Positions 1,462-7,998 of a stretch of DNA of 64,000 bases are shown here, piece by piece (positions within the stretch are counted from its first letter, which is position 1; each line of letters opens with the position of its first letter). The notes under the pieces are model-generated. The model was not told the origin of the DNA, made no database searches, and was given only the letters and a program-made list of their open reading frames with translations. The stretch comes from Xanthobacter dioxanivorans. GTDB lineage: Bacteria; Pseudomonadota; Alphaproteobacteria; Rhizobiales; Xanthobacteraceae. A program made the translations under genes and the position numbers. The stretch is taken from NCBI RefSeq assembly GCF_016807805.1, contig NZ_CP063362.1, positions 1,550,001 through 1,614,000 of the forward strand, given 5' to 3'.

Positions 1462-2337
1462 CTACCCCTTGAGCAGCTTCTGCACGAGGATGCGGTCCAC
1501 ATAGTGCGGACCGTCGAAGACGAAGGTGTCGAACCCCTCGTAGGCCTTCAGCTGGGCCAGCAGCTCCTCGGCGGTGGCGGCGCGGAAGGTGCCGGTCTCC
1601 GCCGGGCGGAAGGCCTCGGCGATCAGCCGGAAGCGCCTGGCGCCGAGCCGGGCGGAGATCACCTCGGCATAGCGCCGCGCCGCCAGGGGCGCGCGGGTGT
1701 AGACGCCGACGCCGTCCTGGAAGAACAGCCCCACATCCTTCGGCAGCCAGTTTTCGATCCAGTCCGCCAGCGCCTCGGGACCGACGTTGGAATTGTCGTA
1801 GCAGCTCACCCAGAGCGGGCGGGGAATGGCGGCGGTCGCGGCCGCCATCTTGCCCACCTCGGCCCAGGTGGGGTCGGCCTCCACCGGAAAATAGAAGCCG
1901 GCCGGCCGGAACGGCAAAGGCTGCCGCGCGATCCGGGCGGACAGGGCGCCGAGGTCGAGGACCTGCTTGCGGGCGGTGGGCTCGCTGAAGCGGCTGGCGA
2001 GGCCGGCGATGATGCTGCGCGCCCAGGGCTCCCGCGCGATGCGGGTCCAGTTGGGAGGGTCCGCGACCAGGGACAGGCCGAGGCCGGGCAGGGGCACAAA
2101 GGCGGTGTCGTCCGCCACCAGCCATTGCACCAGGAGGCTGCGCGCACCGAGAAAGTCCCAGTCGCCGCGCGGGTCGAGCGCCCCGCCGTGCACCTGCCAG
2201 ACCACGCCATCCAGCAGGCCCGGCGTCCTCGGCCGGTGCAGCGCCGCGATGCGCTCGGCCCCGGCGAAGCCGGCGGCACCGGCGGCGGTCCCCACGGCGC
2301 CGCCTGCGAGCCCGGCGAGAAGAAGGCGGCGGTTCAT
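1462..2337 (-). CDS. Exported DUF4434-like (TIM-barrel glycosidase-like) protein
   Basis: A 291-residue protein starting MNRRLLLAGLAGG, a twin-arginine-like export signal followed by a small-residue hydrophobic stretch to about residue 27. The stretch FFQDGVGVYTR near residue 205 resembles the QDGVG signature of the DUF4434 family, which is related to TIM-barrel glycoside hydrolases; WVSCYDNSN and FDTFVFDGPHYVD are further barrel-like strands. It is the last gene of the wecB - bcsB-like - nfrB operon, 28 bp after the glycosyltransferase, so a periplasmic role in trimming, releasing or modifying the polymer is plausible. Catalytic residues cannot be assigned from sequence alone. The family call is moderate and the substrate unknown. 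Confidence 0.6.
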   Translation of the reverse strand: MNRRLLLAGLAGGAVGTAAGAAGFAGAERIAALHRPRTPGLLDGVVWQVHGGALDPRGDWDFLGARSLLVQWLVADDTAFVPLPGLGLSLVADPPNWTRIAREPWARSIIAGLASRFSEPTARKQVLDLGALSARIARQPLPFRPAGFYFPVEADPTWAEVGKMAAATAAIPRPLWVSCYDNSNVGPEALADWIENWLPKDVGLFFQDGVGVYTRAPLAARRYAEVISARLGARRFRLIAEAFRPAETGTFRAATAEELLAQLKAYEGFDTFVFDGPHYVDRILVQKLLKG

Positions 2338-2365
2338 CGCCGGGCCTGCGGGCGCCGGCCGCGCC

Positions 2366-4480
2366 TCATGCCGGTGCGACGGCGAGGCGGCGCTCCTGCT
2401 CGCGGACGGTGGCGAGGATCGCCTCTTCCTTCACGATGCCGCAACGCACGAGATACTCGCCGATGCGCCCGTCCACGTCGGGATGGTAGTTCTCCATGGC
2501 CGCATCGAAGGCCTCGCGCTGCATCAGGCCCTTTTCCAGCAGCAGGTCGCCGAGGAGCGGCGGCGACTGGTGGCCCTCCAGCCCGGGCGACACGCCGCGC
2601 AGCAGGCGCAGGCCGTCATTGATCTCGCTTTCGCGGGCGATGCGCTGGAGCGGCAGGTCGCCCACCGCGACGCGGACCTCGTCGAGGGCCTTCTGGCTGA
2701 GGGGCGAGGGCACCGCCACCACCAGGCGCCCCGTCGCGTCCTCGCCGACGGGCAGGATGCGCCGGCGCACCATGAGGTCGAGGGGGAGCAGATCGTGGAA
2801 CTGCCGCACCATCTGCTCGGTCACATGGGTGCGGGGCAGGTTGGACTGGAAGGCGATGGCCTCGGCGAGGGTCTCCTCGTCGAGCCAGCCGCGCGAGACG
2901 AGGATGCGCCCCAGCGGCTGCTGGCGCTCGTCCTGGACCGCGAGGGCCTGCTCCACATGTTCCGGCAGCACCGCCTGCCAGGTGAGCAGCAGCTCGCCGA
3001 GGCGCTGGCGTGACTGGCCGAGCTCGAGGGCATCGGGGAAATCGTGGGCGGTCTTGTCCCAGACGATCCGCTTGCCGCGGAAGACGTGGTCGAGGAACAG
3101 CCGCCAGGCGCGCACCGTGGCGGCGAAGTTGACGAAATTGGCCATCACCACGCGGGGCACGGACATGAGCCCCTGTTCCCAGCCATAGACGACGCTGACG
3201 AAGTAGAAGCGCTGGATCAGCCGCAGGGCGAAGGCCACGGCGTTGCCGGTGAGCACCGCCAGCAGCCACGTCTCGGTGGCGAAGATGGAGGGATAGCGCG
3301 CCGGCAGGACGCCGAGCCTTTCCGCGCCGTAGATCAGCAGGAAGTGCGCCGCCACCACGTAGGCCATCACCGCGACGATGGAGGTGAGGATGCCCTTGCG
3401 GTCGCGGAACAGGAAGTACTTGGTGGCCCAGTTGCCTTCCCAGCCCATCTGGCGCCAGCCCTGGAAGGCGATGCCGAGGGCCCAGCGCGCCTTCTGCCGG
3501 TAGGAGGTGCGGAAGGTGTCGGGGAAGAACTCGCGCACGCACAGCGGCATGGTGAGATGCACTTCCTTCGGCTTGGCGAAGCCGAAGAAGGATTCACGCG
3601 TCACCCGGTATTCCACCGGCAGGCGGGCGATGATGGACTGCATCTTCGCGTGGTAGAGGCGCGCGCTGATGTCGTAGTCCTCGGTGAGGCTCGCGGTGTT
3701 GAAGACGTCGCCGTCGCCTTCGTTGAGCATGTGGAGGATGGCCTTGCGCGAGAAGCAGGTGCCCACCCCCGCGGAGGGCACCGAGCCGGCGATGCTCTCG
3801 CGCACCACGAGATCCTTGGCATGCCACTCGGCGAACTCGTCCATGTAGATGCCGGCCACCAGCTCCGACCAGTGGCGCTCCAGCGAGTAGACCGGGATCT
3901 GGATCAGGTCCTTGCGCGGCAGGAGATAGTTGAAGAAGCGCAGCTCCAGGGGATGCAGCACGTCCTCGGCGTCGTGCAGCACCAGGCCGGCGAACTCGGT
4001 GCCGGTCATCTGCTCGTGCTGGAAGATGGCGCGCACCACGGCGTTGAGGCAGTCGGCCTTGTTGGTGGGGCCGGGATTGCGCACCTCCACCCGCACCAGC
4101 TGCTTGTAGCGCCGGCGCATGCGCTCCACTTCGGCGATGGTGTCGGGATCGTTCGGATAGGTCCCGACGAAGATCATGTAGCGCCGGTAGTCCATGACCG
4201 AGACCATGTTCTCGATCATGGCCGCGATCACGGGGGATTCCAGCCATGCGGGAATCATGATGGCCATCGGCTGCTCGTCCCTCTGGTAGAGGGCGGCCGG
4301 GGTCAGCGGCCGGATGAACGGCTCGATGACGAAGCGGCGGTAGATCCGCCGCCCCCAGTACCATGCGTCCACGAACAGGTCGTCGATGGACGAGATCAGG
4401 ATGATCACCGCCACGCCCGCCGCCACATACTCCACGAAGCGGATGTAATCGGCGAGGAGATAAGGCCAATAAAGCTGCAT
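2366..4480 (-). CDS. nfrB: NfrB-type processive glycosyltransferase with C-terminal MshEN c-di-GMP-binding modules
   Basis: A 704-residue membrane glycosyltransferase. Order: one N-terminal transmembrane helix (about 15-35); a GT2 catalytic domain with MIPAWLE, an HDAEDV Asp-rich site near residue 175, SLTEDYDISAR (ED) and a QKARWALG (QxxRW) acceptor motif, as in cellulose and N4-receptor glycan synthases; further transmembrane helices about 365-440; then regulatory tails. Residues 493-545 form two 24-residue motifs (RLGELLLTWQ... and PLGRILVSRG...) separated by five residues, the MshEN c-di-GMP-binding pattern; residues 642-695 repeat it with a six-residue spacer. E. coli NfrB is known to be c-di-GMP-controlled and to need WecB. 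Gene order with wecB supports the same chemistry here, a ManNAc-type polymer, but that is inferred. Confidence 0.85.
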   Translation of the reverse strand: MQLYWPYLLADYIRFVEYVAAGVAVIILISSIDDLFVDAWYWGRRIYRRFVIEPFIRPLTPAALYQRDEQPMAIMIPAWLESPVIAAMIENMVSVMDYRRYMIFVGTYPNDPDTIAEVERMRRRYKQLVRVEVRNPGPTNKADCLNAVVRAIFQHEQMTGTEFAGLVLHDAEDVLHPLELRFFNYLLPRKDLIQIPVYSLERHWSELVAGIYMDEFAEWHAKDLVVRESIAGSVPSAGVGTCFSRKAILHMLNEGDGDVFNTASLTEDYDISARLYHAKMQSIIARLPVEYRVTRESFFGFAKPKEVHLTMPLCVREFFPDTFRTSYRQKARWALGIAFQGWRQMGWEGNWATKYFLFRDRKGILTSIVAVMAYVVAAHFLLIYGAERLGVLPARYPSIFATETWLLAVLTGNAVAFALRLIQRFYFVSVVYGWEQGLMSVPRVVMANFVNFAATVRAWRLFLDHVFRGKRIVWDKTAHDFPDALELGQSRQRLGELLLTWQAVLPEHVEQALAVQDERQQPLGRILVSRGWLDEETLAEAIAFQSNLPRTHVTEQMVRQFHDLLPLDLMVRRRILPVGEDATGRLVVAVPSPLSQKALDEVRVAVGDLPLQRIARESEINDGLRLLRGVSPGLEGHQSPPLLGDLLLEKGLMQREAFDAAMENYHPDVDGRIGEYLVRCGIVKEEAILATVREQERRLAVAPA

Positions 4481-4499
4481 GGCGGCGGTTCCCAGCCTA

Positions 4500-6788
4500 T
4501 CAGTTGCCGCGGCGGCGCACTTGCGACGCGCGGATCAGCAGCAGGAAGAACAGGGCGGCGGCGCCGATTCCCAGCGGCAGCCCCCAGTCGGCGGAGTTCT
4601 GCCACAGGCGCTGCAGCGTGCCGGACGGACCGTCCGTGTCGGCCACCCGGACGGTGCCGATGGGCGCGCCGGACGCGGTCAGCTCGGTCAGCGTGCCGTC
4701 GACGCCCACCAGGGCCACGTCGCCGCGCGACAGGCGCACCGGCTTGGCCGGCGTCATCGGAACCGGGCCGATGCTCTGCCAGACGATGCCGCGGGCGTCG
4801 TCGCCGCGCACCGCCTGCACCAGGGCCACGTTCTTGAGGCCGCTGATGTCGAGCAGGCGGGCCTTGTCGTCGGTCCCGACCACGAGGCGCTCGCCCTCGA
4901 CCCGGGCCTTCAGCGTCACCCCCTGCACCGGCACGTCGAGGGCGAGGAAGCCGCCGGCGGCACGGTAGCCGGCCCCGAGGGCGGCCACGTCGAAGGTGCT
5001 GGTGGAGGCCGGCAGGCCCGCCGCCGCGGCGGCGCGCACCACCCGCGGCAGGCTCGTCTTGCCGGTGGCGAGGTAGGAATCCGGCACCACCAGCTTGCCG
5101 CCGGCGGCCATCGCCGAGATCACGCCGAGGAAGTCGCCGCCCGGCGCCGAGCCGCCCAGCTCGAAATGGCTGGTGGGCAGCACCGCCACGGGGAACGCCT
5201 GGGGCGTCTCGCGACACTTGTCGCTCACCGGCTGGCGCTGGAAGGTCACGCGCAGCACGTTGCGGGCGGCCAGGGCGTAGGGCGGCACGGCGGCGGAGAT
5301 GTGCTCGGGATGGCCGGTCGCCTCCAGCCGCTTGGCGGCGAGGAGCACGTCGTTGAGGAACACCGCCACCACCGGCTCGGAGGTGGAGGCGCCGGGCGAG
5401 GCCGCGACATCGAGGTTGAGGCGGCTCGGCAGGCTCTTGCCGCCGGTGGCGGCGGCGAGGTCGAAGCTCAGCACCCAGTCACCGCGGGCGAGCACGTCGA
5501 TGTTGCCGGCGGCCGGGCCGAGGCTCGACAGGGCCACCGAGGAGGGGTTCTCCGGCGCGGTGTCCACGGCGCGGATGGTGATGGTGCTGGAAGAGAGCGA
5601 GGTGCGCCACAGGCTGTCGAACAGCTGCGCCGCCTTGCCGCCCGCCGCGCCGCCGACCGCGATGACCGGCCGGCCGGCGAGGAACTGGAGGCTGACCTCG
5701 TCGGGGGCGACGGTGACCGAGCCGAGGCTGGCCGCCTTGGCCCGCCATTCGCCGAACGCCGCGCCGGCATTGCCGAGGCGGGCGCCGAGCGCGTCCAGGG
5801 CGCCGCGGACCCCCGACAGCAGCTGCGCGTCGGCCACCGCGATGTCGGCGCCGAGCGGCGAGCCCGGCAGCACCAGCAGCGCGCCGATCTCGGAGGCGTC
5901 GCGGATGCGGTAGGTGCCGGCGCCGACGAAGGCGGAGAACGGCGCCACCTGCCGCAGGGAGGCCGGCACCTGGATGCCGGTGAGGTCCACGTCGTCGCCG
6001 ATGGCCGGCAGGGTCTTCACCCGCAGCCGCTTGCCGGAGGATTCGAGGGCCACGCCCAGCCGCCAGGCGGTGTCGTAGGTGTCCTTGGAGAGGGTGCCGC
6101 CGGCCACCAGGATGGAGCCGGAGCCCGGCATGGCGCTCCAGGCGGTGGCGAGGTTGCGCACCGCGCCCGCGTCGTAGGAATAGGTGAAGCGGGTCTTCGG
6201 GCTGACCTTCAGGACGTTGCCGATGCCCCGCTCGTCGGCGCACAGATACTCGCCGATGACCGACGACCAGGCGGTGCCGAAGCGCACGAAGCCGGTCTCG
6301 CGCGGGCGCCCGTCCACCGCGATGGTGGCGGCGGCGCTGCCGTTGTCGGCTTCGAGGCGCCGCGAGTAGACGGGCACGCCGTCGACGGAGACCACCATGG
6401 TGGTGCGGCCGCCGTCGCCGCGCAGATAGTCGCCCTCGACGGCGATGCTGGCGCCGTCGAGCGGCACGCCGGCCGGAACCGGCAGGTAGATGTCCCGCCG
6501 CGCATCCATGCCCTGGAGCACCACCGCATCCTCAATGCCGAGGTCGGAGAGGGTGAAGGAGCGCGTCACCCGCGTGTCGGCGGCGCGTTCCTGCACCGCC
6601 GAGAGCACCGGATCGAGCGCCGGCGCCGGTGCCATGGGCACGGCGGCCGGGGCCGGGGCCGGGTTCGGCCCCTGGGCGGCGGCGGGAAAGCTCAGCAGCG
6701 CCGCGGCGAGGAGACCGGCCGGCAGGAGGCGGGCGGCGCGGAGGGCAGTCTTGCCGGGCGCCGTGCGAAAGGCGGGGTCGTGTCTCAT
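4500..6788 (-). CDS. BcsB-like periplasmic polysaccharide synthase subunit
   Basis: A 762-residue exported protein with a signal peptide (about 1-39, ending ALLSFPAAAQG), a Pro/Ala linker, a long beta-rich periplasmic body, and one C-terminal transmembrane helix (LPLGIGAAALFFLLLIRA) followed by a basic tail. This architecture (signal, carbohydrate-binding beta domains, single C-terminal anchor) is that of BcsB, the periplasmic partner of cellulose synthase BcsA. Here the partner glycosyltransferase is the NfrB-like protein 19 bp downstream, not a BcsA. It starts one base after wecB ends, so the two are co-translated. Assignment to the BcsB superfamily is good; the polymer it guides is not known. 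Confidence 0.75.
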   Translation of the reverse strand: MRHDPAFRTAPGKTALRAARLLPAGLLAAALLSFPAAAQGPNPAPAPAAVPMAPAPALDPVLSAVQERAADTRVTRSFTLSDLGIEDAVVLQGMDARRDIYLPVPAGVPLDGASIAVEGDYLRGDGGRTTMVVSVDGVPVYSRRLEADNGSAAATIAVDGRPRETGFVRFGTAWSSVIGEYLCADERGIGNVLKVSPKTRFTYSYDAGAVRNLATAWSAMPGSGSILVAGGTLSKDTYDTAWRLGVALESSGKRLRVKTLPAIGDDVDLTGIQVPASLRQVAPFSAFVGAGTYRIRDASEIGALLVLPGSPLGADIAVADAQLLSGVRGALDALGARLGNAGAAFGEWRAKAASLGSVTVAPDEVSLQFLAGRPVIAVGGAAGGKAAQLFDSLWRTSLSSSTITIRAVDTAPENPSSVALSSLGPAAGNIDVLARGDWVLSFDLAAATGGKSLPSRLNLDVAASPGASTSEPVVAVFLNDVLLAAKRLEATGHPEHISAAVPPYALAARNVLRVTFQRQPVSDKCRETPQAFPVAVLPTSHFELGGSAPGGDFLGVISAMAAGGKLVVPDSYLATGKTSLPRVVRAAAAAGLPASTSTFDVAALGAGYRAAGGFLALDVPVQGVTLKARVEGERLVVGTDDKARLLDISGLKNVALVQAVRGDDARGIVWQSIGPVPMTPAKPVRLSRGDVALVGVDGTLTELTASGAPIGTVRVADTDGPSGTLQRLWQNSADWGLPLGIGAAALFFLLLIRASQVRRRGN

Positions 6789-6789
6789 G

Positions 6790-7998
6790 TCAGTCTCTCA
6801 CGAGCAGGGCGTCGAGGCCGGTGGAACGCCGGGGCGCTGGCGCGGCGGGCGGATGGGAAATGGGAAGGGGCGAGAATTCCTGCACCGGCCGTCCGCAGAT
6901 GCAGTCCACGATCCGGCGGCAGGCCTGCCCGTCGCCGTAGGGGTTGATCCGGTCCGCGTAGGCGGCGCGGGCCGCGGGATCGTCGAGGAGCCGGCTGACC
7001 GCGCCGACGATGGCGGTGCGCGACGTGCCCACGAGCTGCACGGTGCCGGCATCCACCGCCTCCGGCCGCTCGGTCACCTCGCGCATCACCAGCACCGGCT
7101 TGCCGAGGGCGGGAGCCTCTTCCTGCACCCCGCCGGAATCGGTCAGCACGATGTAGGCCCGCTGCATCAGCCGCTGGAACGGCAGGTAGTCGAGCGGCGG
7201 CACGAGGTGCACGTTCGCCCGGCCCACCAGGGCCTCGTGCACCGGCCCCTTCACGTTGGGATTGAGATGGACGGGGTAGACGATCTCCACGTCGTCGCGG
7301 CGGGAGAGGTCGGCCAGCGCGTCGCAGATGTTGCGGAAGCCGTCGCCGAAATTCTCCCGGCGGTGCCCGGTGACGAGGACGATGCGCTTGGCCGGGTCGA
7401 GCGCCGGCATCTGCGCATCGAGCGCCGCGCACAGGTCCGGGTCGGCCTCGATCCGCACCTGCGTCGCCTGGAGGGCGTCGATGACGGTATTGCCGGTGAC
7501 GACGATGCGCCCATCGAGGCGCTCGGCCTCCAGATTGGCGCGGGAGCGAACCGTGGGCGCGAACAGCAGGCCGCTCACCACGTCCACCACGCGGCGATTC
7601 ATCTCCTCGGGAAACGGCTGATCGAGGCGGTAGGTGCGCAGCCCCGCCTCCACATGGCCCACCGGTATCCTGCGGTGGAAGGCGGCGAGCGCGGCCGCCA
7701 TGGCGGTGGTCGTGTCGCCGTGCACCAGCACGAGATCGGGCGCAACCTCCGCGAGCACCGGGTCCAGCGCCGCGAGGGCGCCGCCGGCCAGCCGGTTAAG
7801 CCCCTGGTTGTGGGCCATGAGGCCGAGATCGAAGTCGGGGCGGATGTCGAACAGGCGCAGCACCTGGTCCAGCATCTCGCGGTGCTGGCCGGTGACACAG
7901 ACGAAGGAGCTGACCGCCGCCTCCCGGCCCAGGGCCTGGACCAGCGGCGCCATCTTGATGGCCTCCGGCCGTGTGCCGAAAATCGACAATATTCTCAA
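6790..7998 (-). CDS. wecB: UDP-N-acetylglucosamine 2-epimerase
   Basis: Converts UDP-GlcNAc to UDP-ManNAc in the cytoplasm. Motifs seen: RILSIFGTRPEAIKMAPL at the N-terminus, GQHREML, VHGDTTT, HVEAGLRT followed by PFPEEMNRR, TGHRRENFG, and TDSGGVQEEAPALGKP with VMREVTERPEA. The start is TTG: it is the only one that gives the canonical N-terminus, and GGCGGAC upstream is a weak Shine-Dalgarno. At 402 residues it is slightly longer than the usual 370-380 because of a Pro/Ser-rich tail after ICGRPVQEF. First gene of the polysaccharide operon. In E. coli the same gene (nfrC) is required together with NfrB for the N4 receptor glycan, which supports the operon's assignment. Confidence 0.93.
   Translation of the reverse strand: MRILSIFGTRPEAIKMAPLVQALGREAAVSSFVCVTGQHREMLDQVLRLFDIRPDFDLGLMAHNQGLNRLAGGALAALDPVLAEVAPDLVLVHGDTTTAMAAALAAFHRRIPVGHVEAGLRTYRLDQPFPEEMNRRVVDVVSGLLFAPTVRSRANLEAERLDGRIVVTGNTVIDALQATQVRIEADPDLCAALDAQMPALDPAKRIVLVTGHRRENFGDGFRNICDALADLSRRDDVEIVYPVHLNPNVKGPVHEALVGRANVHLVPPLDYLPFQRLMQRAYIVLTDSGGVQEEAPALGKPVLVMREVTERPEAVDAGTVQLVGTSRTAIVGAVSRLLDDPAARAAYADRINPYGDGQACRRIVDCICGRPVQEFSPLPISHPPAAPAPRRSTGLDALLVRD

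Follow-up and report, generated by a model that had tools for sequence, protein, structure and literature searches.

A probable NGR/PGR-type exopolysaccharide synthase locus with a BcsB-like subunit and a split layout in Xanthobacter dioxanivorans

Four tandem genes in a 64,000-nucleotide stretch of the Xanthobacter dioxanivorans chromosome (the window, C1:1550001-1614000) probably encode most of a signal-controlled machine for a surface sugar chain. The reading we consider likely is that they specify a c-di-GMP-activated, ManNAc-linked and probably O-acetylated exopolysaccharide synthase, of the kind represented by the N4 glycan receptor (NGR) of Escherichia coli and the PGR locus of Acinetobacter, here in a split layout in which nfrA and a set of acetylation genes lie elsewhere on the chromosome. 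The locus seems to belong to a kind of system that has been described before, and does not look like a new hybrid; it would extend the NGR/PGR surface-glycan type to a soil genus that includes laboratory strains. What is new is modest: the split layout itself, and a tree of NfrB proteins in which the BcsB-coupled members fall on one side of a branch.

The operon occupies positions 1462-7998 of the window on the minus strand, and all four frames are open. The first gene is wecB (nfrC-like; 6790..7998, 402 residues, TTG start), encoding a non-hydrolysing UDP-GlcNAc 2-epimerase. It is followed after a single base by the gene for a BcsB-like periplasmic subunit with a predicted C-terminal membrane anchor (4500..6788, 762 residues), after a further 19 bases by an nfrB-type gene for a GT2 exopolysaccharide synthase with C-terminal MshEN c-di-GMP motifs (2366..4480, 704 residues) and, after 28 bases, by the gene for a DUF4434/YbcH-like protein with a TIM-barrel, glycosidase-like fold (1462..2337, 291 residues). 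The gene identities and the tandem layout proposed in an earlier sequence-only reading are borne out by these open reading frames and by their family matches. The genome contains 30 GGDEF matches, consistent with c-di-GMP being made. A defence function was also considered for the operon, and was dropped when a PADLOC search with the four proteins returned no defence-system match at E <= 0.001.

On the family model NF012033 (PRK15489), the synthase scores 1104 bits, twice the cut-off of 537, and it is the single match to that model in the genome; on the E. coli-type model named NfrB (NF008411) it falls below the threshold, at 646 against 1170 bits. MshEN motifs have a tandem 24-residue LG-type shape, and motifs resembling them occur at residues 493 and 522, with a third at 642. 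The suggestion that NfrB carries such motifs agrees with two models that exceed their cut-offs on this protein (PF05157, 36 bits against 23; NF053729, 77 bits against 38), and the Pfam scan found no PilZ domain in it, MshEN being found instead. By eye, a fourth MshEN-like motif follows that at 642, within residues ~640-700, and in the E. coli NfrB, too, there is a third motif, at 691. The catalytic motifs are present as DAED at 170, TED at 266 and QKARW at 329, in keeping with the DxD, TED and QxxRW motifs given as catalytic in the published work on these synthases (PMC8669469). Identity between the window NfrB and its E. coli counterpart is 44% across 544 columns; in the window protein, the main alignment stops at residue 548 of 704. 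Among the E. coli residues mutated in that work (D169, D267, W330, L490, G491 and L537; PMC8669469), the first five correspond to D170, D268, W333, L494 and G495 in the window NfrB, and L537 corresponds to I542. By analogy with the published E. coli and Acinetobacter studies, the window NfrB would be activated by c-di-GMP; for E. coli NfrB, a Kd of 1.0 uM for this ligand is reported (PMC8669469).

On TIGR00236 (cut-off 210) the WecB protein reaches 460 bits, and with PDB 3dzc 441 bits; at E <= 0.001 the genome contains no other match to TIGR00236. WecB would be expected to supply UDP-ManNAc to the synthase. Direct linkage of wecB to nfrB has been described for organisms that have no other wecB (PMC8669469).

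The fourth protein lies below curated cut-offs, with 15.4 bits against 30 on PF14488 and 34 against 344 on NF007404 (YbcH); E. coli YbcH itself scores 235 bits on PF14488. In an hhalign profile comparison, the protein is similar to E. coli YbcH (probability 96.3, 227 columns, 22% identity), and on that account it may work like YbcH, yet by the curated cut-offs it is no family member. The DUF4434 assignment, weak by sequence alone, is supported by this profile comparison. For this protein and for the BcsB-like protein, phmmer searches against solved structures returned no match at E up to 5, and fold comparison was therefore used for both, with two structure predictions, each of one protein alone. 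The fourth protein matches the C-terminal fold of PgaB, and the glycosidase-like fold that had earlier been proposed for it is indeed a TIM barrel by this comparison. Judged by eye from its N-terminus, it is predicted to be exported. A literature search returned no paper joining DUF4434 with a polysaccharide.

The nfrA gene lies outside the window on the same chromosome. A PF13283 (NfrA_C) match of 259 bits at C1:1524126-1524641 falls within an open reading frame of 1179 residues (L004:9112-12651) carrying many TPRs, ~22 kb before the window start and ~25 kb from nfrB. Ahead of it, in the same direction, are an AlgF-like gene, an MBOAT (AlgI-like) gene and two AlgX-like genes, giving an algF-algI-algX-algX-nfrA block (L004:9112-16949) that lies ~18-26 kb before the window start and ends ~19.5 kb before the operon. 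The likeness of the encoded protein to E. coli NfrA is clear only in the C-terminal part (23% over 282 columns), and on NF007302 the comparison is 38.5 versus 1223 bits. The frame around NfrA_C is 1161-1247 residues long in nine named Xanthobacter, against 730-754 residues in two Microvirga and Aquabacter. In all nine named Xanthobacter, nfrA adjoins algF, algI and two algX matches, away from the operon; among the 11 stretches covered, no alg match was found near nfrA in L118, which is only 10.8 kb long, or in L120. Of 12 genomes in the genus, the own genome among them, 7 have NfrA_C and NfrB on a single contig, ~18-68 kb apart; in the other 5 the two lie on separate contigs.

It is unlikely that the operon is a relic or silent, cut off from nfrA and the acetylation genes and making no exported polymer. 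The position of nfrA away from the operon in the examined Xanthobacter genomes would fit such a state, as would the two of 13 other same-genus genomes in which no NfrB match was found, one of them only 88% complete. Against it stand the four open frames, the retention of the catalytic and most MshEN residues, and the side-by-side arrangement of the nfrB, BcsB-like and DUF4434-like genes in 11 of those 13 genomes.

With 29 bits, the BcsB-like protein exceeds the PF03170 cut-off of 21. In a genome-level search with the same model, the operon gene is the sole match, its best stretch reaching 19.7 bits, just under the cut-off. Fold comparison with the predicted structure of the single 762-residue protein finds a BcsB fold with predicted C-terminal membrane-anchor helices, which, with the PF03170 score, upholds the earlier identification of the protein as BcsB-like. 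Its closest homologues are ~80% identical and include named Xanthobacter proteins, and the name BcsB is given to homologues by some sources. Another genome of the same family (G683) has two BcsB-like copies, at C4:1884-4085 and C192:7298-9436, one of which adjoins its NfrB match while the other is on a different contig.

The fold of this partner, the naming of its homologues and its standing as the sole PF03170 match in the genome could all be taken to indicate a diverged bcs system producing cellulose or a cellulose-like glucan, with NfrB acting as BcsA. BcsA carries PilZ, however, whereas the glycosyltransferase here reaches twice the NF012033 cut-off and has MshEN and no PilZ in the Pfam scan; moreover, the only WecB (TIGR00236) in the genome sits in the operon, and NfrA is present. 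The scores of NfrB and WecB make a diverged cellulose operon very unlikely.

Relatives of the locus were retrieved with a BcsB-like profile, and the best 80 of 222 confirmed stretches, corresponding to 79 named loci, were retained, so that the sample leans to near relatives. Of the 79 loci, 64 were counted and 15 were dropped for having less than 2.5 kb of upstream or less than 8 kb of downstream flank. A gene was scored as present when a tblastn match at E <= 1e-8 to the window or own-genome protein occurred within ~10 kb on each side, and diverged copies can therefore be missed. Among the 64 loci (from the best 80 of 222 stretches), nfrB is present at 62, a wecB-like gene at 61, nfrA at 53 and a DUF4434-like gene at 51; the wecB-like count includes matches of 41-46% identity, some kilobases off (L016, L019, L028, L029, L040 and L063), which may be another epimerase. 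Linkage of nfrB and wecB-like genes to the BcsB-like gene is more than chance, and the co-occurrence in relatives expected in the sequence-only reading is found in this sample. The commonest orders, again among the best 80 of 222 stretches, are wecB-bcsB-nfrB-nfrA-DUF4434 (22 of the 64 loci) and this order with algF-algX inserted ahead of DUF4434 (19), and at 52 loci nfrA is downstream of nfrB in the same cluster as the BcsB-like gene.

At 11 of the 64 loci from these best 80 of 222 stretches there is no local nfrA match: eight are Xanthobacter, one is Pseudochelatococcus (L081) and two are Ramlibacter (L071 and L076). The two Ramlibacter loci, like L075 with its shorter flank, have only the BcsB-like gene and show no nfrB match in the flanks covered. 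After the BcsB-like gene, L071 and L076 each have a PAS-GGDEF-EAL gene (L071:9506-15111 and L076:9749-15323). A whole-genome search found NfrA_C in all 15 BcsB-carrying genomes checked, including those of all nine named Xanthobacter and of L081.

The sequence-only reading had held that a BcsB-like subunit replaces NfrA, an idea that looked attractive because nfrA lay outside the fixed window. Such a replacement was ruled out by the NfrA_C match on the same chromosome and by the linkage of nfrA in relatives. A true hybrid, in which the BcsB-like protein stands in for NfrA and the nfrA of this genome serves an unrelated polysaccharide, is highly improbable: nfrA does lie outside the operon in Xanthobacter, and together with the acetylation genes it could form a unit of its own, but the genome has no second NF012033 match for it to serve, the 52 clustered loci (of 64, from the best 80 of 222 stretches) and the 15 NfrA_C-positive genomes speak against it, and BcsB of cellulose synthase is a periplasmic subunit and not an outer-membrane pore. 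Since most other loci examined unite the genes, commonly as wecB-bcsB-nfrB-nfrA-DUF4434, the BcsB-like subunit is an addition to the NfrA pore and no substitute for it.

Genomes were also drawn by NfrB alone, at E <= 1e-120 for the class and E <= 1e-140 for the phylum. In the class draw 9 of 289 genomes have NfrB, and in the phylum draw 14 of 398, the own genome counted in each. Among 41 relatives, own genome included, 14 have NfrB: besides the own genome, these are 11 of the 13 others in the genus and 2 of 11 from other genera of the family, with none of 16 from the order. The 33 other NfrB genomes have NfrA_C in 32 cases, a BcsB-like protein in 19 and a DUF4434-like protein in 14 (two weakly). 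Outside the family, 19 of 20 NfrB genomes have NfrA_C within ~5 kb of NfrB, and one of the 20, G537, has NfrB but no NfrA_C match. A BcsB-like protein is directly upstream of NfrB in 6 of these 20 and was not found in the other 14, and BcsB is therefore not essential to this kind of system. The DUF4434-like protein was detected in only one of the six distant BcsB-positive genomes, with a narrow profile (A2) whose absences may be misses.

A tree built from 95 NfrB proteins places its 80 BcsB-coupled members on one side of a single branch with an SH-aLRT support of 92, a value that comes from a short search and lies below the star mark, with long branches flagged near the fork (L085, L088 and others). 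Because 73 of the 80 BcsB-positive rows came through BcsB-based retrieval and one is the window, only the six from the NfrB draws (L085 and L121-L125) test this split independently; those six agree with it. The tree leaves out 13 loci (L133-L145), since most repeat named Xanthobacter. The Xanthobacter NfrB proteins group with those of Microvirga (support 92), of which L015 is one cluster in the order wecB-bcsB-nfrB-nfrA-DUF4434, and this suggests that the split layout arose in the Xanthobacter line.

A broader reading is offered tentatively and with some doubt. It may be that there are two NfrB lineages, one working with NfrA alone and the other with an obligate BcsB-like subunit, often accompanied by an alginate-type O-acetylation module. 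In that case BcsB would serve c-di-GMP-gated synthases in general as a chain guide and would not be specific to cellulose, and the two halves of the Xanthobacter machine would be separate transcription units, possibly regulated independently. If the two-lineage reading is true, these loci would be a well-defined starting point for work on the function of BcsB beyond cellulose.

For the NGR/PGR-type synthase preferred here, the following scheme can be proposed. WecB would make UDP-ManNAc, and binding of c-di-GMP to the MshEN motifs would switch on NfrB, which would polymerise the sugar and move the chain across the inner membrane. From an anchor next to NfrB, the BcsB-like protein would guide the chain into the periplasm, where the AlgF/AlgI/AlgX-like proteins would probably O-acetylate it; the YbcH-like TIM-barrel protein could bind or trim the chain, and NfrA would export it. 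The UDP-ManNAc substrate and export to the surface are modelled on the published E. coli and Acinetobacter work, and we infer O-acetylation, the guiding role of the BcsB-like protein and the YbcH-like role from gene content and fold. A ManNAc-containing surface polymer, and its use as a phage receptor, are plausible for Xanthobacter; a ManNAc nature of the glycan is itself postulated or proposed in the E. coli and Acinetobacter papers (PMC8669469, PMC8669472, PMC12507263).

Among known systems, the nfrBA-ybcH genes and wecB of E. coli K-12, which underlie the NGR, share with the Xanthobacter genes NfrB, the NfrA_C domain and a DUF4434 protein, which in E. coli is YbcH. The listing of the E. 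coli K-12 nfr stretch shows neither a BcsB-like gene nor an acetylation gene, and the E. coli wecB sits in the ECA operon (PMC8669469, PMC8669472). The BcsA-BcsB cellulose synthase shares the BcsB fold of the partner and its predicted C-terminal anchor helices, and differs from the window in that the latter has an NfrB with MshEN and a UDP-ManNAc-type epimerase in the operon, with NfrA in the genome.

Both the association of these genes and a phage-receptor role for such loci are already in print in the Achromobacter and Acinetobacter papers (PMC8669472, PMC12507263). In Achromobacter xylosoxidans, a cluster of nfrA, nfrB and wecB with a BcsB homologue and periplasmic O-acetyltransferase homologues has been reported; as published, this cluster has the same BcsB and acetylation additions to the nfr core (PMC8669472). 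The difference is one of layout, with one cluster in Achromobacter and two loci in Xanthobacter. Three other Achromobacter loci have the order wecB-bcsB-nfrB-nfrA, followed in L070 and L078 by algX-algX-algI matches. The nfr cluster of Simplicispira suum is described as containing an alginate-type acetylation cluster (PMC8669469). Judged by title, none of the literature matches listed reports the locus in Xanthobacter.

According to its published description, the PGR locus of Acinetobacter baumannii shares with the window a BcsB homologue (PgrD), an NfrB homologue (PgrC) and a WecB homologue (PgrF). It also has PgrE, structurally like the C-terminus of PgaB, a fold shared by the fourth protein of the window, as well as a predicted outer-membrane porin, PgrG; PgrA, which is diguanylate cyclase-like but lacks the GGDEF motif, is particular to PGR in this comparison (PMC12507263). 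In Xanthobacter, unlike PGR as described, the pore gene is elsewhere, together with the acetylation genes. The 2025 study of PGR reports that clean deletion of pgrD abolishes adsorption of phage StAb3, and that a one-base change in pgrF leads to phage resistance, with susceptibility restored by complementation (PMC12507263).
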